DNA of 64,000 nucleotides from Marchantia polymorpha subsp. ruderalis (Eukaryota > Streptophyta > Marchantiopsida > Marchantiales > Marchantiaceae), in assembly GCA_037833965.1 (NCBI GenBank), contig AP031354.1, forward strand, positions 11,076,001-11,140,000, read 5' to 3'. The notes beneath the pieces were generated by a model. That model saw nothing but the letters and a program-made list of their open reading frames with translations. It was not told the DNA's origin and ran no database searches. Each line of letters opens with the position of its first letter. Within the stretch, counting starts at the first letter, position 1. This document shows positions 24,012 through 49,644 of this stretch, one piece after another. Position numbers and translations under genes: made by a program.

Positions 24012-26275
24012 TGTGGTACCCCACTTTTGGTAATTTTGAGGAAATTAAAACATTTTTGGAAAACTGTACCCTGGCAGCAATGTAAATAGCCTTCGGTGCA
24101 TCAAAACAGAGTGAATTCGGAAGATCGCGGAGATTCTCGAGGGATCTCGTAGAATCTAGGAGTTGGGTGCAGCAATAAGGACGGGCACCACCCTCCCTGC
24201 GAGCTCTGCAGTTAGGATCCCTACGGCGCAAGGCGCAAAACCCGCCTTCGGAGCTGTGTCCGCGGCGGTAGGGAAATCCTTCATATTTAGGTCAACCCCC
24301 GGACGCCTTTACCTAGCTAGGGTCTCGTTGGAAAGAGCTCGACGCACTGATTCCAACGAGCCCAAGAACGCCAACAGCGGATAAGGACTCCGGGAGTTAT
24401 GAAGGTTGTAAGATACTCAGCTCTTCGCCTGCGCACAGGCGGAGAAGTTTTGTCCTATGCGCGGACGAAGGAAGTTCGCCTGTGCACAGGCGAAATAGGG
24501 TTTGAGGTAGGCGCGAAGTTCGCCTACGCACAGGCGTCCGCCTGTGCACAGGCGCTTCAGCGTCGGCGGGAAATCCGCCTTGGGCCCTAGAAATGCGCCT
24601 TGTGAGGTAGAAATTGTACGGCGCCTTCTGCGCCAGCGCAGCGCCGCGGGCAAGCAAGGAGCCGCCAGAATAGTCAAATCCGTACGGACGGGACGGATGG
24701 ATGCGCTCTTGGACGGACGGAGTTGCGGCGGCGGAAGCGCCGACGAAGAGACAAGGAACGGACAGTCTGGACGGAGACGGCTGACCGCGGTCAACGCCTT
24801 CCGCACCCGCGCGTCGCCACGGACGGAATTCGCCTGCGCACAGGCGAGCGCCTGTGCACAGGAGGATGAAGTTCCGCGCCGGCGGAGAATCCGCCGAGGA
24901 GTTTGCCTGCGCACAGGCGGGAGTTGAACTTTTGTCCGACATGCGGACACACGCGTCGAGGCAGAAGGGGATTGGCTGAGGAGCGGCACGAACGAGTGTA
25001 CCGCGCAAGGCGGAAAACTTGCCTTCGGCCCTGCGCACCCATGTCCGCGGCGTAGTACGCTCGCGGAGTTCAAATCCGCCAATTCGAGCGTGAGAGTTTA
25101 ATCGGCGACGGCGGAGCGTGAAGCCGCGCGTGAGAGCGGAGACCGTTTCAGCGTAGAGCCGGCGCGGCCATCAATTGAGACGTCCTCCACGAGCAAGAGC
25201 CGACCATGACCTTCGACCGGGCGGCGGAGAGCGTCCCATTCTTGAATTCGCGATTCCATTCTCTTGTGCGAGCTGCGCGCGTCCATCTGCTGGCTGCTAA
25301 GCATTCTCGACATCGCCGCACAGAGGATTTCTTGGTGATTGAGGGAGAAGTGAGTGCGCGTGATTTGGAATTGAGGGCGATTAGAGTTTGCCGAGGAAGA
25401 AAGGAGCTCGAGCGGTGCGGAAGTAGAATGAGCGGGCGAGCGAACTCCAGGAACGCAATGACGAGACCGGGCCGATTGCGGATGCTGCCGCTTCGTCTAC
25501 CACAGAACGGGCTGCAAGAAAGCTCGATTTCTTGCTATGGGGATGGAACTACATCTGTGCGGATATGGTGCGCGAGTGGCTAGAGCCACAGGGACCACCC
25601 TCGCGCGGATTGCGTCCGCATGTTGATCGGTGGACAGTCCAAGATTGGGCGCAGGCATTGGGAAGATGTGCCGGCATGCCAGGGCATCTCCTCTTCGATA
25701 GTGAGAGCATCAAGGTGACCAAGCAGGAAGAGGCGCAATTTGTGGAGCTGTTCAAGACCGGGAGGTCTACCAAGAATGGGTACAGGACCCGCGATTACAA
25801 GGATCGATTCCGCCGGACTTTGTCCGCGGCGCTGATGCAATTACTGCAGCCACACCGCGCCTGCTACGTCACATTGTGGCAGGTCTCTTTTGTGGAGTGC
25901 GTCATCGAGGGAACTCCAATTCACTGGGCGAGCATCCTGCACAGGGTGATGCGACAGCACGCTTTTGAGGAGAAGGGGGGAACTCTAAACCATCTCTCTC
26001 CTTTCCTCATCAATTTTTATCGACAGCGGAATTGTTTGACAGCGGCGGAGCTTGAGCGTTTTCCGCCGTTGTCCGTCGACCATCCCGGGAAGTATGTGCG
26101 GGAGAATGAGGTCGACACTGATGTAGAGGAGTCACCGACTTCTACTCCGTCAAGGCGGAGGGACGAAGGGAGGAACACTCCTGCAGCACGAGCGCCGCGG
26201 AAGCGGCGATGGAGAGAGGAGTCCGAAGAGGAGCAGCATCAAGAACCCTCTGCTCCAATTCGACCGCGGCCGCTG
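24012..26275 (+). mobile_element. LTR1: 5' part of an ORF-L LTR, joined to pol
   Basis: Starts with TGTGGTACCCCAC (24012) and follows LTR2 (28443 onwards) for about 2.26 kb, clearly more diverged from LTR2 than LTR2 is from LTR3. It carries CGCCTGTGCACAGGCG palindromes (about 24430-24560, 24830-24930). At 26273-26275 it passes into the RT part of pol; the shared trinucleotide CTG marks the joint. The LTR 3' part, the primer site, gag and half of RT are missing. Confidence 0.85.
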
Positions 26276-28405
26276 GAAATATTCATAGATGACTTCTGTG
26301 TCTTTGGGAAGCGGTCCGAACACCTAAGTCACTTGAAGCAGACCTTCGATAAATGTAGAGAGAGCAGTTTATCACTGCATCCCGAGAAGTGCTTTTTCTT
26401 TATGACTAGTGGGATCTTGTTGGGTCATCGGGTCTCGGCAGACGGCATTGCGGTGGACATCGAGAAGGTCAAGGTTATACTCGAGCTTGAGCCACCCACG
26501 AATCTAAGAGAGCTGCGAGCATTCCTGGGTCATGTGGGCTACTACCGAAGATTCATACACCTGTATGCAATACTGGCGGCGGACCTGACCAAGTTGTTGA
26601 AGAAGGACGAGCCTTATGCTTGGGGTGCGAACCAGCAGTCAGCATTTGAGGCTCTTAAAGCGAAACTCACGACTGCTCCCGTACTAAGGAGTCCAGACTG
26701 GAATCGACCATTCCATGTTTACGTTGACACATCTGCATTCGCCATCGGTGTAGTACTGAGTCAAAAGGATGACAACAAAAAGGACTACCCGATCTACTTC
26801 GCGAGCCGACAGCTGTCTCTAGCAGAGCGGAAGTACACCACGACGGAGAGAGAAGCGTTGGGGATGGTGTACTCCTGTAAAAAGTTCCGTCACTACCTAA
26901 TCTGCTACGAGTTTGTGTTCCATGTGGACCACTACGCATTGCAACACCTAGTCAAGAAAGCCGACCTATCCGGTCGGATCGCCAGGTGGGTGTTGTTACT
27001 ACAAGAGTTCACCTACACAGTCCAGACCAGGAAAGGGGTGCACCACGAAAATGCGGATTACTTGTCCCGATTATGGACCCAGCCGACAGAGGAGGAATTG
27101 GTGGACGATTTTCCAGATGAAGAGTTATTTCAGTTGTCTGCAGGACATGAGTCCCGCTATGCCGACCTGTATCGATATCTGCTAACCCTCCAGTGTCCCG
27201 TAGGCATGGATTTGGAACAGCGAACTGTCTTTATTCATAAGGCAGGCCCGTACCAACTCCAGCAGGGGGTTTTGTTCAAGAAGATGGCAGATGAGCGCTT
27301 ATGCAGATGCCTGGAGGAATCAGAGGTACCAAGAATAGTGAGTGCGATGCATACAGAGGAGGCGGGTGGACACTATGCCACCAGGAACACGGTCACAAAG
27401 ATTCTAAATGCGGGGTATTGGTGGCCGACCATGTTTAAGGATGTTCTCGATTACATCCGCAAGTGCGACAGTTGCCAGAGGACGGGGAGACCGACGCCTA
27501 CAACACGCTGGCCCCTGACTCCCATCATGCCTCTAGCACCTTTCGAGAAGTGGGGCATTGACTTTGTAGGGCCGATACAACCAGTGACTAGAAGTACACG
27601 AAGGCGTTACATTCTGGTAGCAACGGACTACGCCACCAAAATGGTAGAGGCCAGGGCCACCAGAAGGGATGATGCTGCCACAGTGGCAGCCTTCTTGTTT
27701 GAGTCGATCATCACACGCTACGGATGTCCCTTAGAGCTAGTCAGCGACCGGGGCACGCATTTTCTGAATCAGATCATCGAAGATCTGACACGGTATTTCC
27801 ACATCAAGCACCGGAAGACTACTCCATACAATCCCAAGGCAAATGGACTGACGGAGAAGTCCAATGGTCTGCTGTGTAAAATACTACTCAAGGTCACGGT
27901 GAATCACGCTCACGACTGGGATACGAAGCTAGCAGCCGCTCTATGGGCGTACCGGACAGCTGAGAAGATCACGACCAAACAGACACCATACTTTCTGGTG
28001 TATGGGCAACACCCGATACTCCCGATCGAATTTGAAGTACCCACCCAACGAACGTTGGATTTGCAGAGGATGGGCGCAGAGGAGAGTCAGCTCTACAGGT
28101 TACAGGAGGTCACGCTGCTGGATGAGAGGAGACGAGACGCCGAAGATCGCACCAGGAAAATCCAGCTCCGCCGAAAGGAGAGATACGATAAAAAGATCAA
28201 ACCGGTACTCCTGCAGGCGGGTGATTTGGCATTGCTCTACGACAGCAGGCATGCCAGATTCCCAGGCAAACTGCACCTGAGATGGATGGGACCTTACAGG
28301 GTTGTCGAAGTCTTCCCGAATGGATCCATCCAACTTGCGGACCTGGCCGGCGATTTGTTAGGCACCCGAGTGAACGGGTGGCGGTTGAAGAAATACCACA
28401 TGTGA
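25206..28405 (+). pseudogene. ORF-L / pol chimera
   Basis: The ORF-L start (25206) is read for 125 codons; a 25-bp deletion near 25510 (loss of the AFEERLIARK-coding part) shifts the frame. From 25532 a single open frame of 957 codons contains most of the ORF-L N-terminal domain (to the IRPRPL segment), then switches in frame at 26273-26275 to RT from the catalytic FIDD onward, followed by complete RNase H, integrase and GPY/F module. RT lacks its fingers and most of the palm, so it should be inactive. Integrase is complete in sequence. Whether the fusion is expressed is unknown. Confidence 0.75.
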
Positions 28406-28442
28406 GTGTTCGCGTGGGCGCTCACAATTGAGGAGGGGAGCA
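26273..28442 (+). mobile_element. Duplicated pol 3' half and polypurine tract
   Basis: This 2170-bp segment matches 37451-39620 with, as far as I could see, one difference (GATACT at 28016-28021 against GATCCT in the other copy). It ends in the polypurine tract GAGGAGGGGAG (28430-28440) directly before the start of LTR2. It makes an arrangement LTR1-partial pol-LTR2-gag-pol-LTR3, a tandem element sharing its middle LTR. Confidence 0.9.
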
Positions 28443-29689
28443 TGTGGTACCCCACTTTTGGCAATTTTGAGGAAATTAAAACATTTTTGGAAAACTGTAC
28501 CCTGGCAGCATTGTAAATAGCCTTCGGTACATCAAAACGGAGTGAATTCGGATGATCGCGGGGATTCTCGAGGGATCTTGTAGAATCTGGGATTTGGGGT
28601 GCAGCAGTGAGGACAGGCACCACCCTCCCTGCGAGCTCTGCAGTTAGGACCCCTACGACGCAAGGCGCCAAACCCGCCTTCGGAGGTTGCGTCCGCGGCT
28701 GTAGGGAAATCCTCCATAATTAGGTCAACCCTCGGGCGCCTTGACCAAGTTTGGGTCCCGTTGGAAAGAGCTCGACGCACTGATTCCAACGAGTCCAAGA
28801 ACGCTTGGAACGGATGAGGACTTAGGGAGTTATCACTATTGGAAGAAACGGAGGCGGTCGCCTACGGCTGAAAGAGTTCGCCACCGGCGCGAATTCCGCC
28901 TACGCGGAAGGGGGAATCAAGTTTTGTCCTATGCGCGGACGAAGGCGTTCGCCTGTGCACAGGCGAAGTAGGGTTAGGGGAGGCGCGAAGTCCGCCTACG
29001 CACAGGCGACCGCCTGTGCACAGGCGCTTCGGCGTCAGCGGAAAATCCGCCTTGGGCCCTAGAAATGCGCCTTGTGAGGGAGAAAGTGTACGGCGCCTTC
29101 CGCGCCAGCGCAGCGCCGCGTACGGCGGAAGAGCCGCCAGAGTAATCAAATCGGTACGGACCATGCGGACGGGACGGGTGGATGCGCTCTTGGACGGACG
29201 GAGTTGCGGCGGCGGAAGCGCCGACGGAGAGACAAGGAACGGACAGACTGGACGGAGACGGCTGACCACGGTCAACGCCTTCCGCGCCAGCGCGACGCCG
29301 CGCACGGAATTCGCCTGCGCACAGGCGACCGCCTGTGCACAGGAGGATGTTCAAGTTCCGCGCCGGCGGAGCATCCGCCGAGGCTCCTGCCTGCGCACAG
29401 GCAGAAGTTGAACTTTTGTCCGGCATGCGGACACACGCGTCAAGGCAGAGAGGGATTGGCCGAGGGGCGGTACGAACAAGTGTACCGCGCAAGGCGGAAA
29501 ACTCGCCTTCGGCGCTACGCCCCCATGACCGCGGGGTAATACGCTCGCGGAGTTCAAATCCGCCAATTCGAGCGTGAGAGTTTAATCGACGACGGCGGAG
29601 CGTGAAGCCGCGCGTGAGAGCGAAGACCGTTCCAGCGTACAGCCGGCGCGGCCATCAAGTGAGACGTTCTTCACGAGCAAGAGCCGACC

Positions 29690-32600
29690 ATGACCTTCGA
29701 CCGGGCGGCGGAGAACGTCCCATTCTTGAATTCGCAATTCCAATCTCTTGTGCGCGCTGCGCCCATCCATCTGCTGGCTGCTAAACATTCTCGACGTCGT
29801 CGCACAGGAGATTTCTTGTTGATTGAGGGAGAAGTGAATGCGCGTGATTTGGAATTGAGGGCGATTAGAGTTTGCCGAGAGAGAAAGAAGCTCGGGCGGT
29901 GCGGAAGTAGAATGAGCGGGCGAGCGAACCCCAGGAACGCAATGACGAGACCGAGCAGATTGCGGATGGTGCCACTTCGCCTACCACAGAACGGGCTGCG
30001 CGCTTTCGAGGAGCGCTTAATAGCAAGGAAGCTCGATTTCTTGCTATGGGGATGGAACTACATCTGTGCGAATATGGTGCGCGAGTGGCTAGAGCCACAG
30101 GGACCACCCTCGCGCGGATTGCGTCCGCATGTTGATCGGTGGACAGTCCAAGATTGGGCGCAGGCGTTGGGAAGATGTGCTGGCATGCCAGGGCATCTCC
30201 TTTTCGACAGTGAGAGCATCAAGGTGACCAAGCAGGAAGAGGCGCAATTTGTGGAGCTGTTCAAGACCGGGAGGTCTACCAAGAATGGGTACAGGACCCG
30301 TGATTACAAGGATCGATTTCGCCGGACTTTGTCCGCGGCGCTGATGCAATTACTGCAGCCGCACCGCGCCTGCTACATCACATTGTGGCAGGTCTCTTTC
30401 GTGGAGTGCGTCATCGAGGGAACTCCAATTCACTGGGCGAGCATCCTGCACAGGGTGATGCGACAGCACGCGTTTGAGGAGAAGGGGGGAACTCTAAACC
30501 ATCTTTCTCCTTTCCTCATCAATTTTTATCGACAGCGGAATTGTTTGACAGCGGCGGAGCTTGAACATTTTCCGCCATTGTCCATCGACCATCCCGGGAA
30601 GTATGTGCGGGAGAATGAGGTCGACACTGATGCAGAGGAGTCACCGACTTCTACCCCATCAAGACGGAGGGACGAAGGGAGACACACTCCTGCAACACGA
30701 GTGCCGCGGAAGCGGCGATGGAGGGAAGAGTCTGAAGAGGAGCAGCATCAAGAACCCTCTGCTCCCATTCGACCGCGGCCGCTGTGCGAGCCATACAGCC
30801 GGCCGAAGCAGAAGGCACGCAGACTGGTGTTACCAGCCGACAGTGCGGACACGGCGACGATTGCGACGGAGAAAGGAAGTGCGTCGCCAGAGAGGCATGA
30901 GGAAGCGCGGACGACCGCAGGAGCGACGGGCCACGCTGCAACCTCGACGGGAGAGAGGCCGCCTACGGGCCAAGGGCCTCCGGAGTTACCACGTGCGACG
31001 CGGACAGATGTTCCGTTTGCGCACAGACGAGTTTCCGCGGACGGACGAGCCTCCGCGGACAGGCGATCACAAGTGGACGTGGATCTACGCTTACGCGTGG
31101 GAAGGAGCAGTCCGCCTGTGCACAGGCGCTCACCTGTGCACAGGACACCTCCACACGTGCCGCCTGTGCAGAGGCAAGAATCACCCCCGTTCCAACGTAG
31201 GAAGGGGAAGGAGCCGGCGGAAGAACCGCCTACGAGACACCGGCCCTCGGGGCCAGACCCTCCGGCGCACCACGCGCCGCAATTTGCGCCTTCGGCGCCA
31301 GGGCCTTCGAGCCGAGGAGATACGAGCAGGGAGCGTGCGGAGGCCGCACCATCGGCGGGAAGTCCGCCGATAGATGCGCCTTCGGCGGTAGGGCCTATAG
31401 GCCAAGGGACATCGGGCGAGCGGCCCCCGGCCATGTCGCCTTCGGCGATGGATGTCCGCGGCGCTACGCCTGCGGCGGACAAGGCGCCGGCAATTGCGCC
31501 TGCGCACGGGCCGGGCACAGCCCCCACGGACCGATCAAGGGAGCAGCAACAGACGGAGGAGCGGAGTGACTGTCCGCGGGATGGAATTTCGATGCGCGAT
31601 GCGCAATCAAACCCCGCGCAGCCAACCTCCGCTCGATCGCCTTCGGCGGCGGGCGACGGCGGCAGAGAGGACGCGGAAGACAATCAACAAGCGAGCGACG
31701 GGGATGCCGCACGGGTACATTCGCCTTCCGCCTTAGACATTTTGGCGACGAGCAGCGAGGCTGCAGCCGGGCCTTCGCAGGCAGCACACGTCGATGACGT
31801 GCAGCCCCACTCGGGGCAGTCGCCGACGCAATCAATGGCGACTGAAATTCTCCACTCGGATGATGACGACGGAGGCTCCACGGAAGAAATGTCAGGAGCA
31901 GAAGACACCGAGGAGGAGGAGGAGGAAATTGTTGGAGCGCCGGCGGCGGCGCTCTCTGAGCAGGTGATTCCGTTGCTGAGGTACTTGGATCGCAAGGTCG
32001 ATAAATACGCCGACCCACTCCAGCCGGGATCTTACATCGAATTAGTGCGCAGGCGGACTCGCACTAAAGTCCACACCAGCAAGCTATTAGCTAGAGTGGA
32101 CCAGGAGTTGAGGGAATTGAAGGAGAAGCATGCATGCTTGTGGGGTCAGTATAAGCTTAATCAGAAATTCTACAAGCACTCCGAGAAGATGAAGGATGAG
32201 AAACTGGACGAGCTCACCAAGGAGCAGGTGAAGGTCAAGGAAGCACTCATTTCTGAGCAGGCCCAGAATCGGATTTTGTCAGAGGAGCTCGTGCGACAGA
32301 CGCGGTTGTTGGAACAATGTCAGCTCGCACGGCAGGCGGATGAAGAGTTAATCCGCAGGTTACAGTCAGAGTGTGGCGAATTGAGAGCGCAACGTGCTGA
32401 AGCCGAATCGCAATTAGTGATAATTGAAGAGGATCGCAGGAAGGAGGCGGATCACACGAAGGTGGAGACGGCGAGGCGTGTCGCCCACTGTCTCAAGGGC
32501 TACGCCCACTGGGAAGTGAAGGCGCAGGAGAAACTCACACTGCGTGAGTTGGAATTGCGCGCAGCCGGGTTGTTGTCAGGCGACAGTAGGAGTCGGCGGA

Positions 32601-32815
32601 AGGTAGCAAAGAAGCTCGATGCCTTTCTGTCGAAGGCACAGGATACCATGTCCGCCCTCGAAGTGGAGGTGTCCGCGGCGTTGCAGCGTTTGGGACTGCG
32701 CAGAAGAGCGGAAGATTGGCAGGGTAGGGAGTTAGTGCGCGGCAGTCGGCCGCGCAGGAGACGTAGTACAGGTTCCGCGGAGTGTAGTGTAGCGTGGTTC
32801 CGTGCAGGCGTGTAG
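29690..32815 (+). CDS. ORF-L: LTR-encoded accessory protein, intact (5' LTR)
   Basis: A 1041-codon open frame within U3. The likely true start is Met85 (29942, MTRPSRLRMVPL), because the other families begin about 6-12 residues before the VPL motif; residues 1-84 are also partly conserved and may be leader. Residues about 93-313 form a conserved W-rich alpha/beta domain (LDFLLWGWNYICANMVREWL, DWAQALGRCAG, LLFDSES, RTRDYKDRFRR, LWQVSFVE, LNHLSPFLINFYR). The latter part resembles the plant transposon-protein domain found in plant TE frames (weak, by eye). About 314-730 is low complexity (Pro/Arg/Ser/Glu). An acidic run lies at about 741, then LLRYLDRK, a long coiled coil (about 803-930), and the C-terminus RRRRSTGSAECSVAWFRAGV. 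No catalytic motif, signal peptide or membrane segment is seen. Function unknown. On genomic RNA it would be the last gene, inside the 3' LTR. Confidence 0.85.
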   Translation: MTFDRAAENVPFLNSQFQSLVRAAPIHLLAAKHSRRRRTGDFLLIEGEVNARDLELRAIRVCRERKKLGRCGSRMSGRANPRNAMTRPSRLRMVPLRLPQNGLRAFEERLIARKLDFLLWGWNYICANMVREWLEPQGPPSRGLRPHVDRWTVQDWAQALGRCAGMPGHLLFDSESIKVTKQEEAQFVELFKTGRSTKNGYRTRDYKDRFRRTLSAALMQLLQPHRACYITLWQVSFVECVIEGTPIHWASILHRVMRQHAFEEKGGTLNHLSPFLINFYRQRNCLTAAELEHFPPLSIDHPGKYVRENEVDTDAEESPTSTPSRRRDEGRHTPATRVPRKRRWREESEEEQHQEPSAPIRPRPLCEPYSRPKQKARRLVLPADSADTATIATEKGSASPERHEEARTTAGATGHAATSTGERPPTGQGPPELPRATRTDVPFAHRRVSADGRASADRRSQVDVDLRLRVGRSSPPVHRRSPVHRTPPHVPPVQRQESPPFQRRKGKEPAEEPPTRHRPSGPDPPAHHAPQFAPSAPGPSSRGDTSRERAEAAPSAGSPPIDAPSAVGPIGQGTSGERPPAMSPSAMDVRGATPAADKAPAIAPAHGPGTAPTDRSREQQQTEERSDCPRDGISMRDAQSNPAQPTSARSPSAAGDGGREDAEDNQQASDGDAARVHSPSALDILATSSEAAAGPSQAAHVDDVQPHSGQSPTQSMATEILHSDDDDGGSTEEMSGAEDTEEEEEEIVGAPAAALSEQVIPLLRYLDRKVDKYADPLQPGSYIELVRRRTRTKVHTSKLLARVDQELRELKEKHACLWGQYKLNQKFYKHSEKMKDEKLDELTKEQVKVKEALISEQAQNRILSEELVRQTRLLEQCQLARQADEELIRRLQSECGELRAQRAEAESQLVIIEEDRRKEADHTKVETARRVAHCLKGYAHWEVKAQEKLTLRELELRAAGLLSGDSRSRRKVAKKLDAFLSKAQDTMSALEVEVSAALQRLGLRRRAEDWQGRELVRGSRPRRRRSTGSAECSVAWFRAGV

Positions 32816-32851
32816 CGTAGTGCAGTGTAGTGCTAGGTAGGACTTAGAAGG

Positions 32852-32880
32852 TATAAAATAGTTCCAGGCGTTTTGCCTGG
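32852..32880 (+). promoter_or_regulatory. LTR core promoter: TATA box and adjacent hairpin
   Basis: TATAAAA (32852-32858) lies 37 bp after the ORF-L stop and is present in all LTR copies of the window. It is followed by CCAGGCGTTTTGCCTGG (32864-32880), a 6-bp stem with a 5-nt loop. Transcription would be expected to start close to the hairpin, which makes R-U5 about 930 bp and places ORF-L in U3. Other copies carry CAAGGC...GCCTTG, a paired change. Confidence 0.65.
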
Positions 32881-33265
32881 GGTTCTTTCCCATCAGAAGT
32901 ACAGATCAGGAACCCATTTCCTTTGCGTGTTTGTGTCCTTGAGTTTTGTCACCACGCACGAGGAGTTACAACTTAGCGTTCCGCATTTTGTAGCTGAAGG
33001 CCTTCGGCCGAATGTTCAGAGCTAGTACCTTGGTTAGAGACTTGAGTAGTTCGGAACTGCACCTGCGGGTGACTGCCGATGCTCAGAGCCAGTGACTAGT
33101 TAGATACTTGAACAGTTTCGCCCCTACACCTTCGAGTGTTTCTTTCTGATTGTACTCCCTTGGGATTTTTCCCCTGAATGCCAAAGTGAAGTTTTGCTAC
33201 TTCGTGTAAGCCTTGGTTGTAAATTCAGGTTACGCTGTAGCAGGTGCCTTGAGGGTAACCCTTGT

Positions 33266-33724
33266 AGTATTTCTGGGAATGACAAGTGCCTGAGAATTCA
33301 AACTCTTCAATAGACTGTTGTTGTGTTACTGGAATGTTTCTCAGTGAGTCCTTCAGTGCGGACCTGTGTTCTCTGCGCGTTTTGTGAGTTGAGAGTGTTG
33401 TTCACCGCGTCTGAGTGACTTCGATCCGAAGTAGGCAGTCCAAACCGGGTTTCCTACACTAGCAGCAAGCTAGTGGAAGTGTTGTAAAAGCCGGAGTTGG
33501 AAGTCACTACCCGCAGCTTTGCCGAGTGTGCTCGCGAGAGACTTTCCCCCTGAAATCTTGAAGTAGAGGTCCTAACGGATCTCTGGGTTGTGTTTCTGTA
33601 GTTTCAGGTGTGTGTGTGTGTGTTACGCTGCACTGTGCGACCTCCGAGTGCGCTCCGAGTGGACACTTGCAGTATTTCTGGGAGTGACAGTCGCCTGAGA
33701 ATTCAAACTCCTCAATAGTCTGTT
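33266..33724 (+). repeat. Direct repeat of about 55 bp inside R-U5
   Basis: The segments 33266-33320 and 33671-33724 share AGTATTTCTGGGA, then GAGAATTCAAACTC, TCAATAG and CTGTT, spaced about 405 bp apart. The pair recurs in nearly every LTR of the window, on both strands (for example 8690-8750 with 9095-9150). Confidence 0.8.
33607..33624 (+). repeat. (TG)n microsatellite in U5
   Basis: A short TG run after GTAGTTTCAGG. The tract is at the same position in all LTR copies but varies in length; it is longest near 12253-12278 and 62840-62869. It is useful as a landmark of LTR orientation. Confidence 0.9.
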
Positions 33725-33843
33725 AAAACGTGACACTTTGTACCCTGTGTGTTCCTCTGTCCCTGTGGGTTCGACCTTTCTACCACTATATTGCAGTTTT
33801 AGCCTTTAGTGGGTTATTACATAAGAAGCCGACAACTTCTTTT

Positions 33844-33861
33844 TGGCGCCGCTGCCGGGGA
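33844..33861 (+). other. Primer-binding site, tRNA-Asp type
   Basis: TGGCGCCGCTGCCGGGGA lies 22 nt after the LTR end. It is complementary, with one mismatch as I recall the sequence, to the 3' end of plant tRNA-Asp(GUC), a primer commonly used by Athila/Tat elements. The 22-nt gap contains an inverted repeat AAGAAG/CTTCTT. Confidence 0.85.
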
Positions 33862-33907: not shown

Positions 33908-36742
33908 ATGTCGACTGGGGCTAGCGGGAGCAACCTAAGTGCTAGAGCTGTCCGCAAGTTCCGACGAGATTCAGAGAAGGCCGTGGAAGAGACACGGCGT
34001 CAAAACAAGAAAACACCAAAAAGAGTACCTAAGCCTAGTTCGGCCGACACCCTTGGGGAACCTACCCCCGGCGACTCGGAACCAAACTTGGTGCTTACAG
34101 TTCTACTAGATATTCCTTGCACGGACCCGCCTTGTGAATTAGAAACGACCGCCCGAGAACCGTCGACAGACACACCGATGGCGGACGGACAAGCCAATGT
34201 GTGGCTACCTCAACCGATTACTAAACATTCCTACCCAAAGTACAAAGGGAGTGGGGATGACGACGATGCAGATTCATACATCAAGTTGTTCGAATCGGTG
34301 TCTATTGCCAATCGCGAGATCGCAGACGACGACCGACTAAGGATCTTTCCAAGCCTTCTGCGGAAGAAAGCGAGGAGTTGGTACAATCACGAGAGCATCG
34401 ATCCGACTGGGTTGACAACATGGGCCCAGCTGAAGGAGAAGTTCCTTCGCCGCTTCCGCGAGCTCGGCTACGACAGCCGGGTTTTGACAAAGTTACGAAA
34501 TTTGCAGCGAGAGAAGAAGGAGAGACTGCGTGACTACACTGAGAGATTTCTGGACCTCCTTGACAGAATACCGAAAACAGGACCAGGGTCCCCTTTCTCG
34601 GTACAACAAGCTGTGGATTGGTACGTGACCGGTTTAACTCGGGAGATGGAGACTTTTTGCCGACGCAGCAAGTGCGACACTATTGAGGATGTGATTGCAT
34701 CGGCAGAGGCCTTCGAAACTTCCACTCTCAACCGAAGAGGGAGAGAGAGACGGGAGTCGAAGGAGCGAAAACCGAAGGGAGGGCGAAGACGACGTAGAGG
34801 TACAACTCCGTCATCGGAGGAATCGTCTTCGGACGAGAACCGTTCCTCATCCGAAGAAGAGGAAACCTCATCGTCGGAGGAGGAGAAGAAGAGGAAGAAG
34901 CATGGGGCAGCGAAGAAAAAGGGCACCCGACGAGTGACTACGGACAGAGCGCCGGGAGACATAGCCTCGAAGATGGAGACCCTTGTGAAGGACTTCGCCG
35001 ATCTCAAGGTTCAAGTGGTAGGCGGACATGATCGCCGAAAATCACCCGGGAGAGTGCGAGCGAACTTATGGTGTACTACGTGCGGGGCGGTGGGACATGC
35101 AAACACCGAGTGCCTTACCACCCGTCCGTCATATCCAGTCAACGCAGTAGAGTGGGCACAACCGTACTATGGAGAGCACCCCCAGTACTATGGAGAGGCT
35201 AGCGAAGAGACAGCCTACGCCGTCCAGTCGGTTCCTACCCCTACTGCAGTTTCAGCAATGCAAGTCCCACGATATATTCCGGTGGATCGGGCCACTACAG
35301 TACCCGTGAGGCGGAGAGCACCTCCAGGGACGTTTGACCCACCGCCACCGCGAGCTTGTTATAATTGCGGGGAAGTTGGACACTTCTCACCGCAGTGTCC
35401 CCATCCAAAAAGGCGAAACGATTATGCTCCGACATGTAGTAATTGCAAGAAGACCGGGCATACTGCGCCAGAGTGTGATCAGCCACCAGTCCCTCGGCCA
35501 GCGGTACGATTTGTGAACCCTCCTGCCAAGGAGGACGTCCAAGTTAACCAGGTCGAAGTAGGTTCAGACGGGGATGACGAAGACAAAGAATGGCCGGCTG
35601 AAGAGGTTATGTGCGCACGGGTCGAAACTCGTAGTTCCAAGAAATCGAAGGAGCAAGAGCGTGACACTCGCAAGCACGAACGGAGAACCGACGACCGGAC
35701 GGGAAAAGGGAAGGAGAAGACATCCAGCAAGTCCGACTTGCGACCTGCACGGAAGTCTTCGGCTACGCGAGAGGCACCAGCAGTACGCCCCCAGACAGCA
35801 GTCGAGGACGAGCCAGTACGCTTGCTGAAACGGGACTATGCTCCGGATATCCGCAACGAGGTAACCAACCTGTTGAAGGAAGCGATCCGCACTCAAAAAG
35901 ACCCACAGCGGCCAGACTTGACATCCTCCCTTGGGGCGAAGTTGGCAGCCACCGTGGAACCTCGCAGAGCGTCGCCGCAGACCCCGGCGACCCAACGCGC
36001 CCACTATGACTTGGTCGAAGATCTCGGGAGTCGAAAAGTGAACATCACGTTCAAGCAGCTCTTGGAGGACAATAAGACGTATCGGAGAATGTTGATGCTT
36101 TCGCTACGGCATCCGCGGAAGCCGCGCGCATCCACCTCCTCTCAAGTATATCAAGTGGAAAGCGAAGACCAAGGACCACCAGAGATCGATGTGGAAATAG
36201 CAGGGTGTTGTGTACGCAGGGTGCCAATCGACTCTGGGTCAGGAGTCAACATAATGACGGAGGATACCGCGAGAGCCTTGGGGTTCAGTCAATACGAACC
36301 CTCGAAGCGTGTGTTGAGATTAGCGGATCAGACGCGGAGAATGCCTGCAGGTATGCTGCGTAATGTCAAGACCATCATCGGGGGTGCGGACTTTCGGTTG
36401 ACATATATCATCCTTCAACCGATGATGAAGCAGGGCTATGACGTTCTGCTCGGGCGACCATGGCTATATGGCGCACAAGTCAGATGTGACTGGCGAAGGC
36501 ATCGCCTTAAGTTTCCCCATCCTTCGGAACCGACCAAAACCATTACGGTGCCCTGGAATAGGGTCAGACACGAAGGAGAGACCCCATCGACAAGTGCAGG
36601 TTACACATCGGGCGGGGACAGTGAGTCGACCGCGCGATCGGATTCCAGTGGTACCGAATCCGATTATTTCGTAGGATTCGTTGCCTGCTGTTCGGTGGAA
36701 GAAGAAGAAGAGCCGGAAGCTATTCAGCCGGAAGACGAATAG
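33908..36742 (+). CDS. gag: Gag-protease polyprotein
   Basis: 944 codons. Residues about 100-270 form the retrotransposon gag domain (YPKYKGSGDDDDADSYIKLF, ARSWYNH, TWAQLKEKFLRRF, LRDYTERFLDLLDRIP). A Lys/Arg/Ser/Glu-rich linker follows. Three CCHC zinc knuckles of the form C-x2-C-x3-GH-x4-C start at residues 389, 484 and 510 and bind the genomic RNA in this family. After a charged linker comes a conserved YDLVEDLGSRKVNITFKQLL segment, then the aspartic protease with active site DSGSG (Asp775) and LLGRPWL near its end. The frame ends in UAG at 36740. It forms the virus-like particle and processes the polyprotein. The ATG at 33908 is the first in frame and lies 46 nt after the primer site. Confidence 0.93.
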   Translation: MSTGASGSNLSARAVRKFRRDSEKAVEETRRQNKKTPKRVPKPSSADTLGEPTPGDSEPNLVLTVLLDIPCTDPPCELETTAREPSTDTPMADGQANVWLPQPITKHSYPKYKGSGDDDDADSYIKLFESVSIANREIADDDRLRIFPSLLRKKARSWYNHESIDPTGLTTWAQLKEKFLRRFRELGYDSRVLTKLRNLQREKKERLRDYTERFLDLLDRIPKTGPGSPFSVQQAVDWYVTGLTREMETFCRRSKCDTIEDVIASAEAFETSTLNRRGRERRESKERKPKGGRRRRRGTTPSSEESSSDENRSSSEEEETSSSEEEKKRKKHGAAKKKGTRRVTTDRAPGDIASKMETLVKDFADLKVQVVGGHDRRKSPGRVRANLWCTTCGAVGHANTECLTTRPSYPVNAVEWAQPYYGEHPQYYGEASEETAYAVQSVPTPTAVSAMQVPRYIPVDRATTVPVRRRAPPGTFDPPPPRACYNCGEVGHFSPQCPHPKRRNDYAPTCSNCKKTGHTAPECDQPPVPRPAVRFVNPPAKEDVQVNQVEVGSDGDDEDKEWPAEEVMCARVETRSSKKSKEQERDTRKHERRTDDRTGKGKEKTSSKSDLRPARKSSATREAPAVRPQTAVEDEPVRLLKRDYAPDIRNEVTNLLKEAIRTQKDPQRPDLTSSLGAKLAATVEPRRASPQTPATQRAHYDLVEDLGSRKVNITFKQLLEDNKTYRRMLMLSLRHPRKPRASTSSQVYQVESEDQGPPEIDVEIAGCCVRRVPIDSGSGVNIMTEDTARALGFSQYEPSKRVLRLADQTRRMPAGMLRNVKTIIGGADFRLTYIILQPMMKQGYDVLLGRPWLYGAQVRCDWRRHRLKFPHPSEPTKTITVPWNRVRHEGETPSTSAGYTSGGDSESTARSDSSGTESDYFVGFVACCSVEEEEEPEAIQPEDE

Positions 36743-36748
36743 CAATTA
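36740..36748 (+). promoter_or_regulatory. Leaky stop codon UAG-CAA-UUA (gag-pol readthrough)
   Basis: The gag-pro stop TAG is followed directly by CAA TTA, matching the UAG-CAR-YYA context that gives translational readthrough in tobacco mosaic virus and related plant viruses. The pol frame continues in the same phase without another stop, and no in-frame ATG occurs before about 36938. Readthrough is therefore the simplest way to make Gag-Pol. Confidence 0.8.
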
Positions 36749-39583
36749 ACTGTGGGACTGGGAAGGAGTGAGACGAGTCACACCGAGGGCATTGTCGACC
36801 CTAGTGACTGTCACGAAGTACAACTCAGTCCAGACAAGTGCTTGAAGGTATCAAGCGCAGTGAGAGGAGACGAGCTAAGGAAAGTACAGGCATTCCTTAG
36901 CCATTATGTCGACGTCTTCGCCTGGAAGATCGAAGACATGAAGGGGATACCTGCACGGTATGGGGAACACCGTATCGATTTACTGGACGACTCAGTACCC
37001 ATACGACAGCGCCAGTATCGCCTCAACCCAAAATACTCCTTGCTAGTTAAGGAGGAGATAGATAAGTACTTGAGTGCTGGTATTATTTACCCTGTGCTCA
37101 GCAGTGAGTGGGTGTCGCCGATTGTTATCGTACCCAAGAAGTTGACGGGTAAGATACGAGTGTGTCAGGATTTCCGGAAGTTGAATGCAGCAACACGCAA
37201 GGATCATCACCCGTTACCATTCACGGATGCCATTCTAGACCATGTCGCAGGACATGAATGTTATAGCTTCCTGGATGGGTTCTCAGGTTACAATCAGGTG
37301 TCTATCCGGGAACAGGACAAGGATAAAACTACGTTCACAACCGACTGGGGAACTTACGCATATCACAAGATGCCCTTCGGTCTGTGCAACGCGCCTGCCA
37401 CCTTTCAACGGATGATGACCAATATCTTCCAGGAACAACTGAGGAAGTTCCTGGAAATATTCATAGATGACTTCTGTGTCTTTGGGAAGCGGTCCGAACA
37501 CCTAAGTCACTTGAAGCAGACCTTCGATAAATGTAGAGAGAGCAGTTTATCACTGCATCCCGAGAAGTGCTTTTTCTTTATGACTAGTGGGATCTTGTTG
37601 GGTCATCGGGTCTCGGCAGACGGCATTGCGGTGGACATCGAGAAGGTCAAGGTTATACTCGAGCTTGAGCCACCCACGAATCTAAGAGAGCTGCGAGCAT
37701 TCCTGGGTCATGTGGGCTACTACCGAAGATTCATACACCTGTATGCAATACTGGCGGCGGACCTGACCAAGTTGTTGAAGAAGGACGAGCCTTATGCTTG
37801 GGGTGCGAACCAGCAGTCAGCATTTGAGGCTCTTAAAGCGAAACTCACGACTGCTCCCGTACTAAGGAGTCCAGACTGGAATCGACCATTCCATGTTTAC
37901 GTTGACACATCTGCATTCGCCATCGGTGTAGTACTGAGTCAAAAGGATGACAACAAAAAGGACTACCCGATCTACTTCGCGAGCCGACAGCTGTCTCTAG
38001 CAGAGCGGAAGTACACCACGACGGAGAGAGAAGCGTTGGGGATGGTGTACTCCTGTAAAAAGTTCCGTCACTACCTAATCTGCTACGAGTTTGTGTTCCA
38101 TGTGGACCACTACGCATTGCAACACCTAGTCAAGAAAGCCGACCTATCCGGTCGGATCGCCAGGTGGGTGTTGTTACTACAAGAGTTCACCTACACAGTC
38201 CAGACCAGGAAAGGGGTGCACCACGAAAATGCGGATTACTTGTCCCGATTATGGACCCAGCCGACAGAGGAGGAATTGGTGGACGATTTTCCAGATGAAG
38301 AGTTATTTCAGTTGTCTGCAGGACATGAGTCCCGCTATGCCGACCTGTATCGATATCTGCTAACCCTCCAGTGTCCCGTAGGCATGGATTTGGAACAGCG
38401 AACTGTCTTTATTCATAAGGCAGGCCCGTACCAACTCCAGCAGGGGGTTTTGTTCAAGAAGATGGCAGATGAGCGCTTATGCAGATGCCTGGAGGAATCA
38501 GAGGTACCAAGAATAGTGAGTGCGATGCATACAGAGGAGGCGGGTGGACACTATGCCACCAGGAACACGGTCACAAAGATTCTAAATGCGGGGTATTGGT
38601 GGCCGACCATGTTTAAGGATGTTCTCGATTACATCCGCAAGTGCGACAGTTGCCAGAGGACGGGGAGACCGACGCCTACAACACGCTGGCCCCTGACTCC
38701 CATCATGCCTCTAGCACCTTTCGAGAAGTGGGGCATTGACTTTGTAGGGCCGATACAACCAGTGACTAGAAGTACACGAAGGCGTTACATTCTGGTAGCA
38801 ACGGACTACGCCACCAAAATGGTAGAGGCCAGGGCCACCAGAAGGGATGATGCTGCCACAGTGGCAGCCTTCTTGTTTGAGTCGATCATCACACGCTACG
38901 GATGTCCCTTAGAGCTAGTCAGCGACCGGGGCACGCATTTTCTGAATCAGATCATCGAAGATCTGACACGGTATTTCCACATCAAGCACCGGAAGACTAC
39001 TCCATACAATCCCAAGGCAAATGGACTGACGGAGAAGTCCAATGGTCTGCTGTGTAAAATACTACTCAAGGTCACGGTGAATCACGCTCACGACTGGGAT
39101 ACGAAGCTAGCAGCCGCTCTATGGGCGTACCGGACAGCTGAGAAGATCACGACCAAACAGACACCATACTTTCTGGTGTATGGGCAACACCCGATCCTCC
39201 CGATCGAATTTGAAGTACCCACCCAACGAACGTTGGATTTGCAGAGGATGGGCGCAGAGGAGAGTCAGCTCTACAGGTTACAGGAGGTCACGCTGCTGGA
39301 TGAGAGGAGACGAGACGCCGAAGATCGCACCAGGAAAATCCAGCTCCGCCGAAAGGAGAGATACGATAAAAAGATCAAACCGGTACTCCTGCAGGCGGGT
39401 GATTTGGCATTGCTCTACGACAGCAGGCATGCCAGATTCCCAGGCAAACTGCACCTGAGATGGATGGGACCTTACAGGGTTGTCGAAGTCTTCCCGAATG
39501 GATCCATCCAACTTGCGGACCTGGCCGGCGATTTGTTAGGCACCCGAGTGAACGGGTGGCGGTTGAAGAAATACCACATGTGA
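36743..39583 (+). CDS. pol: Pol: reverse transcriptase, RNase H, integrase
   Basis: 946 codons in the same frame as gag-pro, entered by UAG suppression; it has no own ATG near its start. Counting from GTG at 36752: RT about 70-245 with catalytic FIDD (Asp239, Asp240); connection; RNase H with VDTSAF, TTEREAL, VDHYAL and HHENADYLSR (the four acidic positions); integrase with an HHCC zinc module (HTEEAGGHYATRN, CDSCQRTG), then catalytic Asp663 (GIDFVG), Asp725 (SDRGTHF) and Glu761 with 35 residues between the last two; GPY/F module at about 906 (MGPYRVVEVF). There is no chromodomain and no second archaeal-type RNase H. It performs cDNA synthesis and integration. All key residues are present, so the protein is probably functional. 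Confidence 0.95.
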   Translation, partial: QLTVGLGRSETSHTEGIVDPSDCHEVQLSPDKCLKVSSAVRGDELRKVQAFLSHYVDVFAWKIEDMKGIPARYGEHRIDLLDDSVPIRQRQYRLNPKYSLLVKEEIDKYLSAGIIYPVLSSEWVSPIVIVPKKLTGKIRVCQDFRKLNAATRKDHHPLPFTDAILDHVAGHECYSFLDGFSGYNQVSIREQDKDKTTFTTDWGTYAYHKMPFGLCNAPATFQRMMTNIFQEQLRKFLEIFIDDFCVFGKRSEHLSHLKQTFDKCRESSLSLHPEKCFFFMTSGILLGHRVSADGIAVDIEKVKVILELEPPTNLRELRAFLGHVGYYRRFIHLYAILAADLTKLLKKDEPYAWGANQQSAFEALKAKLTTAPVLRSPDWNRPFHVYVDTSAFAIGVVLSQKDDNKKDYPIYFASRQLSLAERKYTTTEREALGMVYSCKKFRHYLICYEFVFHVDHYALQHLVKKADLSGRIARWVLLLQEFTYTVQTRKGVHHENADYLSRLWTQPTEEELVDDFPDEELFQLSAGHESRYADLYRYLLTLQCPVGMDLEQRTVFIHKAGPYQLQQGVLFKKMADERLCRCLEESEVPRIVSAMHTEEAGGHYATRNTVTKILNAGYWWPTMFKDVLDYIRKCDSCQRTGRPTPTTRWPLTPIMPLAPFEKWGIDFVGPIQPVTRSTRRRYILVATDYATKMVEARATRRDDAATVAAFLFESIITRYGCPLELVSDRGTHFLNQIIEDLTRYFHIKHRKTTPYNPKANGLTEKSNGLLCKILLKVTVNHAHDWDTKLAAALWAYRTAEKITTKQTPYFLVYGQHPILPIEFEVPTQRTLDLQRMGAEESQLYRLQEVTLLDERRRDAEDRTRKIQLRRKERYDKKIKPVLLQAGDLALLYDSRHARFPGKLHLRWMGPYRVVEVFPNGSIQLADLAGDLLGTRVNGWRLKKYHM

Positions 39584-39607
39584 GTGTTCGCGTGGGCGCT
39601 CACAATT

Positions 39608-39618
39608 GAGGAGGGGAG
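39608..39618 (+). other. Polypurine tract
   Basis: GAGGAGGGGAG lies two bases (CA) before the start of the 3' LTR at 39621 and primes plus-strand DNA synthesis in LTR elements. The same sequence is at 28430-28440 before LTR2. Confidence 0.88.
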
Positions 39619-39620
39619 CA

Positions 39621-42600
39621 TGTGGTACCCCACTTTTGGCAATTTTGAGGAAATTAAAACATTTTTGGAAAACTGTACCCTGGCAGCATTGTAAATAGCC
39701 TTCGGTACATCAAAACGGAGTGAATTCGGATGATCGCGGGGATTCTCGAGGGATCTTGTAGAATCTGGGATTTGGGGTGCAGCAGTGAGGACAGGCACCA
39801 CCCTCCCTGCGAGCTCTGCAGTTAGGACCCCTACGACGCAAGGCGCCAAACCCGCCTTCGGAGGTTGCGTCCGCGGCTGTAGGGAAATCCTCCATAATTA
39901 GGTCAACCCTCGGGCGCCTTGACCAAGTTTGGGTCCCGTTGGAAAGAGCTCGACGCACTGATTCCAACGAGTCCAAGAACGCTTGGAATGGATGAGGACT
40001 TAGGGAGTTATCACTATTGGAAGAAACGGAGGCGGTCGCCTACGGCTGAAAGAGTTCGCCACCGGCGCGAATTCCGCCTACGCGGAAGGGGGAATCAAGT
40101 TTTGTCCTATGCGCGGACGAAGGCGTTCGCCTGTGCACAGGCGAAGTAGGGTTAGGGGAGGCGCGAAGTCCGCCTACGCACAGGCGACCGCCTGTGCACA
40201 GGCGCTTCGGCGTCAGCGGAAAATCCGCCTTGGGCCCTAGAAATGCGCCTTGTGAGGGAGAAAGTGTACGGCGCCTTCCGCGCCAGCGCAGCGCCGCGTA
40301 CGGCGGAAGAGCCGCCAGAGTAATCAAATCGGTACGGACCATGCGGACGGGACGGGTGGATGCGCTCTTGGACGGACGGAGTTGCGGCGGCGGAAGCGCC
40401 GACGGAGAGACAAGGAACGGACAGACTGGACGGAGACGGCTGACCACGGTCAACGCCTTCCGCGCCAGCGCGACGCCGCGCACGGAATTCGCCTGCGCAC
40501 AGGCGACCGCCTGTGCACAGGAGGATGTTCAAGTTCCGCGCCGGCGGAGCATCCGCCGAGGCTCCTGCCTGCGCACAGGCAGAAGTTGAACTTTTGTCCG
40601 GCATGCGGACACACGCGTCAAGGCAGAGAGGGATTGGCCGAGGGGCGGTACGAACAAGTGTACCGCGCAAGGCGGAAAACTCGCCTTCGGCGCTACGCCC
40701 CCATGACCGCGGGGTAATACGCTCGCGGAGTTCAAATCCGCCAATTCGAGCGTGAGAGTTTAATCGACGACGGCGGAGCGTGAAGCCGCGCGTGAGAGCG
40801 AAGACCGTTCCAGCGTACAGCCGGCGCGGCCATCAAGTGAGACGTTCTTCACGAGCAAGAGCCGACCATGACCTTCGACCGGGCGGCGGAGAACGTCCCA
40901 TTCTTGAATTCGCAATTCCAATCTCTTGTGCGCGCTGCGCCCATCCATCTGCTGGCTGCTAAACATTCTCGACGTCGTCGCACAGGAGATTTCTTGTTGA
41001 TTGAGGGAGAAGTGAATGCGCGTGATTTGGAATTGAGGGCGATTAGAGTTTGCCGAGAGAGAAAGAAGCTCGGGCGGTGCGGAAGTAGAATGAGCGGGCG
41101 AGCGAACCCCAGGAACGCAATGACGAGACCGAGCAGATTGCGGATGGTGCCACTTCGCCTACCACAGAACGGGCTGCGCGCTTTCGAGGAGCGCTTAATA
41201 GCAAGGAAGCTCGATTTCTTGCTATGGGGATGGAACTACATCTGTGCGAATATGGTGCGCGAGTGGCTAGAGCCACAGGGACCACCCTCGCGCGGATTGC
41301 GTCCGCATGTTGATCGGTGGACAGTCCAAGATTGGGCGCAGGCGTTGGGAAGATGTGCTGGCATGCCAGGGCATCTCCTTTTCGACAGTGAGAGCATCAA
41401 GGTGACCAAGCAGGAAGAGGCGCAATTTGTGGAGCTATTCAAGACCGGGAGGTCTACCAAGAATGGGTACAGGACCCGTGATTACAAGGATCGATTTCGC
41501 CGGACTTTGTCCGCGGCGCTGATGCAATTACTGCAGCCGCACCGCGCCTGCTACATCACATTGTGGCAGGTCTCTTTCGTGGAGTGCGTCATCGAGGGAA
41601 CTCCAATTCACTGGGCGAGCATCCTGCACAGGGTGATGCGACAACACGCGTTTGAGGAGAAGGGGGGAACTCTAAACCATCTTTCTCCTTTCCTCATCAA
41701 TTTTTATCGACAGCGGAATTGTTTGACAGCGGCGGAGCTTGAACATTTTCCGCCATTGTCCATCGACCATCCCGGGAAGTATGTGCGGGAGAATGAGGTC
41801 GACACTGATGCAGAGGAGTCACCGACTTCTACCCCATCAAGACGGAGGGACGAAGGGAGACACACTCCTGCAACACGAGTGCCGCGGAAGCGGCGATGGA
41901 GGGAAGAGTCTGAAGAGGAGCAGCATCAAGAACCCTCTGCTCCCATTCGACTGCGGCCGCTGTGCGAGCCATACAGCCGGCCGAAGCAGAAGGCACGCAG
42001 ACTGGTGTTACCAGCCGACAGTGCGGACACGGCGACGATTGCGACGGAGAAAGGAAGTGCGTCGCCAGAGAGGCATGAGGAAGCGCGGACGACCGCAGGA
42101 GCGACGGGCCACGCTGCAACCTCGACGGGAGAGAGGCCGCCTACGGGCCAAGGGCCTCCGGAGTTACCACGTGCGACGCGGACAGATGTTCCGTTTGCGC
42201 ACAGACGAGTTTCCGCGGACGGACGAGCCTCCGCGGACAGGCGATCACAAGTGGACGTGGATCTACGCTTACGCGTGGGAAGGAGCAGTCCGCCTGTGCA
42301 CAGGCGCTCACCTGTGCACAGGACACCTCCACACGTGCCGCCTGTGCACAGGCAAGAATCACCCCCGTTCCAACGTAGGAAGGGGAAGGAGCCGGCGGAA
42401 GAACCGCCTACGAGACACCGGCCCTCGGGGCCAGACCCTCCGGCGCACCACGCGCCGCAATTTGCGCCTTCGGCGCCAGGGCCTTCGAGCCGAGGAGATA
42501 CGAGCAGGGAGCGTGCGGAGGCCGCACCATCGGCGGGAAGTCCGCCGATAGATGCGCCTTCGGCGGTAGGGCCTATAGGCCAAGGGACATCGGGCGAGCG

Positions 42601-48903: not shown

Positions 48904-48908
48904 AAAAT

Positions 48909-49644
48909 AGTTCCAGGCGTTTTGCCTGGGGTTCTTTCCCATCAGAAGTACAGATCAGGAACCCATTTCCTTTGCGTGTTTGTGTCCTTGAGTTCTGTCA
49001 CCACGCACGAGGAGTTACAACTTAGCGTTCCGCATTTTGTAGCTGAAGGCCTTCGGCCGAATGTTCAGAGCTAGTACATTGGTTAGAGACTTGAGTAGTT
49101 CGGAACTGCACCTGCGGGTGACTGCCGATGCTCAGAGCCAGTGACTAGTTAGATACTTGAACAGTTTCGCCCCTACACCTTCGAGTGTTTCTTTCTGATT
49201 GTACTCCCTTGGGATTTTTCCCCTGAATGCCAAAGTGAAGTTTTGCTACTTCGTGTAAGCCTTGGTTGTAAATTCAGGTTACGCTGTAGCAGGTGCCTTG
49301 AGGGTAACCCTTGTAGTATTTCTGGGAATGACAAGTGCCTGAGAATTCAAACTCTTCAATAGACTGTTGTTGTGTTACTGGAATGTTTCTCAGTGAGTCC
49401 TTCAGTGCGGACCTGTGTTCTCTGCGCGTTTTGTGAGTTGAGAGTGTTGTTCACCGCGTCTGAGTGACTTCGATCCGAAGTAGGCAGTCCAAACCGGGTT
49501 TCCTACACTAGCAGCAAGCTAGTGGAAGTGTTGTAAAAGCCGGAGTTGGAAGTCACTACCCGCAGCTTTGCCGAGTGTGCTCGCGAGAGACTTTCCCCCT
49601 GAAATCTTGAAGTAGAGGTCCTAACGGATCTCTGGGTTGTGTTT
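48909..49644 (+). mobile_element. LTR3, second part, truncated
   Basis: Continues LTR3 after the solo LTR (equivalent to 32860-33595 of LTR2) with only a few base differences. It stops at GGTTGTGTTT; the last 226 bp, including the (TG)n tract and the TTATTACA end, are missing. Two unmatched bases lead into an inverted LTR. Confidence 0.9.

Follow-up and report, generated by a model that had tools for sequence, protein, structure and literature searches.

The window analysed here is a stretch of 64,000 nucleotides from Marchantia polymorpha subsp. ruderalis (contig AP031354.1, positions 11,076,001 to 11,140,000 of the forward strand; nucleotide numbers below are those of the window). It contains a retrotransposon of the Ty3/gypsy type (family A) whose long terminal repeat (LTR) carries an open reading frame (ORF), designated ORF-L, with the variant pattern of a gene under purifying selection. 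A second family (family B), also represented in the window, carries a related frame in its own LTRs.

The LTR occupies nucleotides 28443–33821 (plus strand, 5379 bp), begins with TGTGGTACCCC, ends with GGGTTATTACA and has the TG...CA termini typical of such units. It lies between a polypurine tract (PPT; GAGGAGGGGAGCA, 28430–28442, plus strand), a second copy of which is found at 39608–39620, and a primer-binding site (PBS; TGGCGCCGCTGCCGGGGA, 33844–33861, plus strand). The PBS is perfectly complementary to the 3′ end of tRNA-Asp(GTC) followed by CCA; the complementary tRNA tail occurs 31 times in the genome, and all three loci that were fetched are tRNA-Asp(GTC) genes according to ARAGORN. 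A gap of 22 bases (33822–33843), present in family B with one difference, separates the end of the LTR from the PBS. Since minus-strand DNA would start beyond this gap, an unusually long stretch would have to be trimmed from the cDNA end. The element has the structure of a Ty3/gypsy retrotransposon, with a PBS, a PPT, a short target duplication and two LTRs of the TG...CA form. The initial annotation had read 28443–33821 as the LTR from its place between PPT and PBS; its coordinates are right and are backed by the target duplications around solo LTRs described below. The unit is a genuine LTR, which integrates as a whole and remains after recombination.

ORF-L is open from 29690 to 32815 (plus strand; 1041 amino acids as first read). 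The LTR has a single TATA[AT]A on its plus strand, which marks a predicted core promoter and is at 32852–32857 (LTR position 4410), 36 bases past the stop codon of ORF-L. Family B has a matching site, again the only one on that strand of its LTR (position 3944), 33 bases past the stop, and the letters downstream of the box are similar in both. Since ORF-L ends before the predicted promoter, the gene falls in the predicted unique 3′ region (U3), with the repeat (R) and unique 5′ (U5) regions to the right of the TATA box. A gene upstream of the predicted promoter but within the LTR is therefore found in both families, and ORF-L is predicted to be the 3′-most gene of full-length RNA, with the PPT before it and R after it. 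The initial annotation had placed it in just this position, in U3, after pol and before R, with which the spacing of 36 and 33 bases ahead of the sole TATA box agrees.

Copies of ORF-L and of the LTR in the genome

The genome searched consisted of nine contigs with a total of 241 Mb. The 30 best-scoring of 44 scored ORF-L copies (L001–L030) were fetched with 1.5 kb flanks and compared with the LTR unit, a check suggested with the initial annotation, which had considered that ORF-L might always lie inside the LTR. This holds for all 30: ORF-L is not an additional frame of the internal region between PBS and PPT, but is located past the PPT and ahead of the PBS, in the LTR, in 30/30 copies. The unit was complete from first to last base, with identical ends, in 28 of them, the exceptions being L002, which is the interrupted right LTR of the window, and L023.

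Twelve of the 30 are solo LTRs, having no pol before them, no PBS after them and identical 5-bp sequences on either side. Among the remaining copies, pol and PPT precede the LTR in 12, the PBS follows it in eight and both are present in four; L016 and L023 could not be classified. ORF-L is free of stop codons in 7 of the 12 solo LTRs and contains one stop in the other five, which bears out the expectation that the gene would be left behind in solo LTRs.

Family B was surveyed by a search with the ORF-L of the solo LTR nested in the window. Fifty-three copies were scored, 48 of them stop-free, and many are paired approximately 10.66 kb apart; ORF-L is present in both LTRs of the elements. The outer ends of these elements (TGTGG, TTACA) are flanked by 5-bp duplications in 5/5 elements checked (four pairs and one triplet). 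The one internal region that was fetched contains gag, pol and a PBS identical to that of family A. At the amino acid level the two families are 90% identical in pol, 63% in gag and 50% in ORF-L, which makes ORF-L the fastest-changing of the three.

Copy numbers were counted by exact patterns and are lower bounds. There are at least 2928 family A-like LTR starts, at least 659 of them directly after a PPT, and at least 1529 family B starts, at least 322 of them after a PPT. Assuming one two-LTR element per PPT junction, such elements leave approximately 1610 of the 2928 family A starts unexplained; this is a rough upper figure for solo LTRs, as it also takes in copies that are truncated and elements whose PPT is altered.

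Tandem arrays of alternating LTRs and internal regions are common, examples being C2:31339456–31390311, C3:20852721–20874933 and C4:3412644–3433986, with spacings of 11184, 11092 and 10657 bases. In the first of these, five LTRs (L006–L009 and L019) stand 11184 bases apart and the target duplication (TGGTG) is found at the outer ends. In both this array and the family B triplet the target duplication is confined to the outer ends, which is consistent with expansion through unequal recombination once they had inserted. On contig C1, between about 2.2 and 3.3 Mb, three blocks (e.g. from 2220676, 2614138 and 2980221) contain LTRs in one and the same order with near-equal spacing, which points to large segmental repeats in the contig or its assembly.

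Selection on the ORF-L frame

A first comparison of the proportions of non-synonymous and synonymous differences (pN/pS) among L001–L030 gave ratios of 0.15–0.32 for pairs with pS >0.01 and 1.31 for 11 near-identical pairs, but was set aside, since selecting these copies by protein score disfavours amino acid changes. Constraint was instead measured on 14 LTRs from contigs C2 and C3, chosen without regard to protein score, by position among the first 100 listed of the 659 PPT junctions; copies on C1 were excluded because of the repeated blocks on that contig.

Ten of the 14 are near copies with more than 93% identity (L043, L044, L052 and L053 were left out of this set). Their shared variants, defined as those present in at least two copies, comprise 63 synonymous and 42 non-synonymous changes in frame, a ratio of non-synonymous to synonymous variants (N/S) of 0.67, against 19 synonymous and 86 non-synonymous changes (N/S 4.53) in each shifted forward frame (Fisher p 5.7e-10, with sites treated as independent). 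Across all 14 copies the shared variants number 215 synonymous and 230 non-synonymous in frame, against 97/350 and 102/342 in the shifted frames, while variants confined to a single copy give N/S ratios of 0.90 in frame against 4.00 and 3.25 in the shifted frames. One frame of the reverse strand has a ratio (0.84) similar to that of ORF-L, as expected because its third positions are common with those of ORF-L. A chance frame in GC-rich DNA is ruled out by the in-frame N/S in comparison with the shifted frames, and the pattern of variants identifies ORF-L as a protein gene under purifying selection.

The frame extends over residues 1–1041 in 7 of the 14 sampled copies, and over residues 46–1041 in L044. 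Constraint is strong at residues 85–310, 311–400 and 736–1041. As none is visible before residue 85, and as ORF-L of family B starts at the residue aligned with Met85 of family A, the ATG at 29942 (957 amino acids) is the likelier start, and translation probably begins there rather than at 29690. Of the intact frame of 1041 codons that had initially been annotated at 29690–32815, the open frame and its coding nature are thus upheld; its start should probably be moved to 29942.

Protein relatives were found in M. polymorpha: all four homologs in a first search and 25 of 27 in a second, these searches having scored only the 7992 and 7993 candidates with the most words in common. In a tree of the N-terminal region, based on the 22 of 30 rows with a match to that part, the A-type rows of the window cluster with P0021, P0007 and P0017, all from M. 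polymorpha, and the B-type rows with P0008 and with P0003, the latter from M. polymorpha. The branches grouping the A-type and B-type rows are starred, except for the one adding P0007 (81/81).

Several motifs of the protein recur among its relatives. Of those covering the site in question, 23 of 26 have a basic KR(K/R) core near residue 341, 19 of 23 have KQ(K/R)AR near residue 373 and 10 of 12 have PLLRYLDRK near residue 761. The middle of the protein is basic and disordered, with arginine-rich segments. AlphaFold predicts with high confidence a long helix at residues 798–961, and a long coiled coil is predicted for the protein.

Gag-pol and the arrangement of the locus

The internal region following the PBS encodes gag, with zinc knuckles and an aspartyl protease (33908–36742, plus strand), and pol, with reverse transcriptase, RNase H and integrase (36743–39583, plus strand, in the same frame as gag). 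The order gag, protease, reverse transcriptase, RNase H, integrase is that of Ty3/gypsy and was recovered with Pfam in both families; Pfam reported no chromodomain in the gag-pol of either. The single gag-pol frame is split at 36740–36751 by the UAG that ends gag, followed by CAA UUA in family A and CAA CUA in family B, and UAG precedes 600 of the 601 exact genome matches to the downstream pattern. UAG CAR YYA is the readthrough context of the tobacco mosaic type, and pol is likely to be expressed by readthrough of this stop codon.

The window contains a direct repeat, 26273–32859 and 37451–44037, whose copies are 11178 bases apart and 99.88% identical. Its first part, 26273–28442 (plus strand), is the tail of pol from the unit that comes before in a tandem array; it differs at one of 2170 bases from 37451–39620. 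The left part of the right LTR, with ORF-L at 40868–43993, extends from 39621 to 44037 (plus strand) and departs from the left LTR at 7 of 4417 bases. The R/U5 part continues at 48904–49644 (plus strand; 2 differences in 741 bases from 32855–33595), where it is cut off at 49644. Between the two parts, at the TATA box, the right LTR is interrupted by a family B solo LTR of 4866 bp (44038–48903, minus strand), which has AAAAT on both sides and ends matching those of family B elements that bear target duplications; its ORF-L is at 44994–47567 (minus strand), with the first ATG at 47549. A second copy of the LTR 3′ of gag-pol, as initially annotated, is therefore present from 39621, though split by the solo LTR. 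The left LTR is preceded by pol and followed by a PBS, which makes it a shared LTR within a tandem array: 28443–33821 is an LTR holding ORF-L, as had been proposed, but it is internal to that array instead of forming the outer 5′ end of a lone element.

Two other long frames are present in the window. One of 957 codons (25532–28405) is a chimera, in which part of the ORF-L of another LTR is joined in frame, by a deletion, to the pol tail at 26273. The other, of 912 codons (2536–5274, minus strand), is made up of about five tandem repeats of 504 bases, 93–94% alike; its Pfam matches, C166 and HsbA, may reflect composition.

Proposed role of ORF-L and relation to known elements

During reverse transcription, plus-strand DNA starts at the PPT, and both LTRs receive a copy of the stretch from PPT to R. 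A gene located there, such as ORF-L, is therefore copied into both in each cycle and duplicated with each insertion, and a recombination between LTRs leaves it in the solo LTR. The duplication had been foreseen in the initial annotation and follows from the anatomy of the element together with standard reverse transcription.

The reading that we favour, with a probability of about 0.6, is that the LTR of a Ty3/gypsy element carries in its predicted U3 a gene that is under selection and likely specifies a nuclear accessory protein acting in trans. ORF-L would be translated from the 3′ end of the element RNA, for example from an RNA spliced from the 3′ LTR. Alternatively, a short RNA could arise from a TATA-less start within U3, which would work equally in solo LTRs and would make them possible stand-alone expression units. 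The protein may oligomerise through its coiled coil and enter the nucleus by means of the conserved basic motifs, where it might counter silencing or help the pre-integration complex or RNA export. Fast change is frequent in proteins at conflict with the host. Among these nuclear roles, counter-silencing is plausible and in our view the most likely, given the fast change of ORF-L and its nuclear-looking motifs, with help in pre-integration or RNA export next.

Several results weigh against this reading. In six of the 14 sampled copies the frame is broken or interrupted, constraint is weak over 401–735 and invisible over residues 1–84, and synonymous sites between families A and B are saturated over the whole of ORF-L, gag and pol, from which no overall ratio of non-synonymous to synonymous substitution rates (dN/dS) can be derived for the pair. 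No TATA[AT]A is present upstream of ORF-L on the plus strand of the LTR. The comparison with domain and structure databases suggested in the initial annotation yielded no recurring domain (17 Pfam families among 35 relatives, each matching 1/35), no match by a sequence search of the PDB and, with Foldseek, no fold match (best E-value 2.9). The two AlphaFold models have a mean predicted local distance difference test (pLDDT) score of 51.6 and 46.5 and are poor apart from the long helix, the N-terminal part included. Finally, the nuclear role and counter-silencing are taken from motifs and rate of change only.

A more far-reaching version can be offered only tentatively: that a trans-acting accessory gene moved into U3, that the solo LTRs are self-contained genes supplying a nuclear counter-silencing protein after gag-pol has been lost, and that the layout is an independent counterpart of that of sag and nef. 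Copies of ORF-L would then outnumber those of gag-pol.

It is possible, though rather unlikely, that ORF-L instead acts in the cytoplasm, as a cofactor of the particle or of the RNA that aids Gag assembly, RNA packaging or reverse transcription and has no part in anti-silencing. The long coiled coil, the basic, disordered middle and the joint selection of ORF-L with gag-pol in two families would suit such a cofactor; the conserved basic motifs, however, resemble nuclear signals, and no kinship between ORF-L and the Gag of the same element could be detected. It seems improbable that ORF-L was captured as a passenger that does nothing for the element and owes its intact look only to the youth of the copies. 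ORF-L has no known domain, its relatives among the scored candidates come only from Marchantia and the 11 near-identical pairs of L001–L030 taken alone are without constraint (ratio 1.31), but variants shared among the 10 near copies are mostly synonymous, the frame and its conserved blocks are kept in two diverged families, and the in-frame N/S contradicts such a passenger. For some plant elements, sense ORFs that follow pol have been proposed to encode envelope-like or cell-to-cell proteins. Such an identity would match the location and orientation of ORF-L; it is very improbable and was rejected, since ORF-L has no transmembrane stretch (highest 19-residue Kyte-Doolittle mean 1.14) and follows the PPT rather than preceding it. 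Short LTRs with ORF-L inserted independently are the outcome that the initial annotation had named as contrary to its proposal. This reading, like one in which nested copies produce the arrangement, could have been suggested by the nesting and tandem array at the window locus, but is ruled out by the duplications exactly at the proposed ends of 12 solo LTRs and 5/5 family B elements.

Plant LTR elements with additional ORFs include Athila, Bagy2, Grande, RIRE2 and Retand (PMC7264820, PMC6317226; these and the other papers cited are drawn on through the parts available). The additional ORFs are assigned to the internal region, for the most part downstream of pol and ahead of the 3′ LTR, and gene23 of Grande is reported to be nuclear with its own promoter (PMC7264820). 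In these parts the elements resemble the present ones in having a fast-evolving additional ORF beside gag-pol whose function is not established; they differ in that ORF-L is past the PPT, in both LTRs, and persists in solo LTRs. A survey of 80 plant species lists extra ORFs and LTRs of up to about 5 kb, and Marchantia does not occur in its main text (PMC6317226). The present element resembles the OTA superclade of non-chromovirus plant gypsy elements (Athila, Tat, Ogre) in that Pfam reports no chromodomain in it, and in the long LTRs and extra ORFs reported for that group (PMC6317226), though the LTRs of the group are not described as coding in the same source; the likeness is one of features and not of a reverse transcriptase tree. 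Bursts of Ty3/gypsy elements are reported in the liverwort Lunularia (PMC9985172), and PMC11302176 deals, in the part available, with wheat. Among the matches listed by word matching in open-licence literature, which is not proof of absence, none was a plant element whose LTR encloses a protein gene. As far as these searches go, an additional ORF in the LTR, under selection and in two families, is a real, large-scale and undescribed arrangement.

Outside plants, the sag gene of mouse mammary tumour virus (MMTV) and lentiviral nef lie in, or reach into, the U3 of the 3′ LTR, downstream of pol. ORF-L has the same position with regard to pol and the predicted U3 of the 3′ LTR; unlike them, it belongs to a plant element without env, takes up about 2.9 kb of a 5.4 kb LTR and shows no sequence kinship to sag or nef by Pfam or among PDB sequences. 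If its function were similar, ORF-L would be a counterpart that arose independently.

For annotation the finding carries a warning, as many LTR copies contain constrained coding frames that would probably be masked as non-coding repeat. The location in U3 makes the role of the accessory gene testable, by asking whether ORF-L acts in trans from solo LTRs, and M. polymorpha is an experimentally convenient organism. Genes in the internal region are lost on recombination to a solo LTR; a gene in U3 shares its DNA with the regulatory region of the element, survives this loss and doubles with each insertion.

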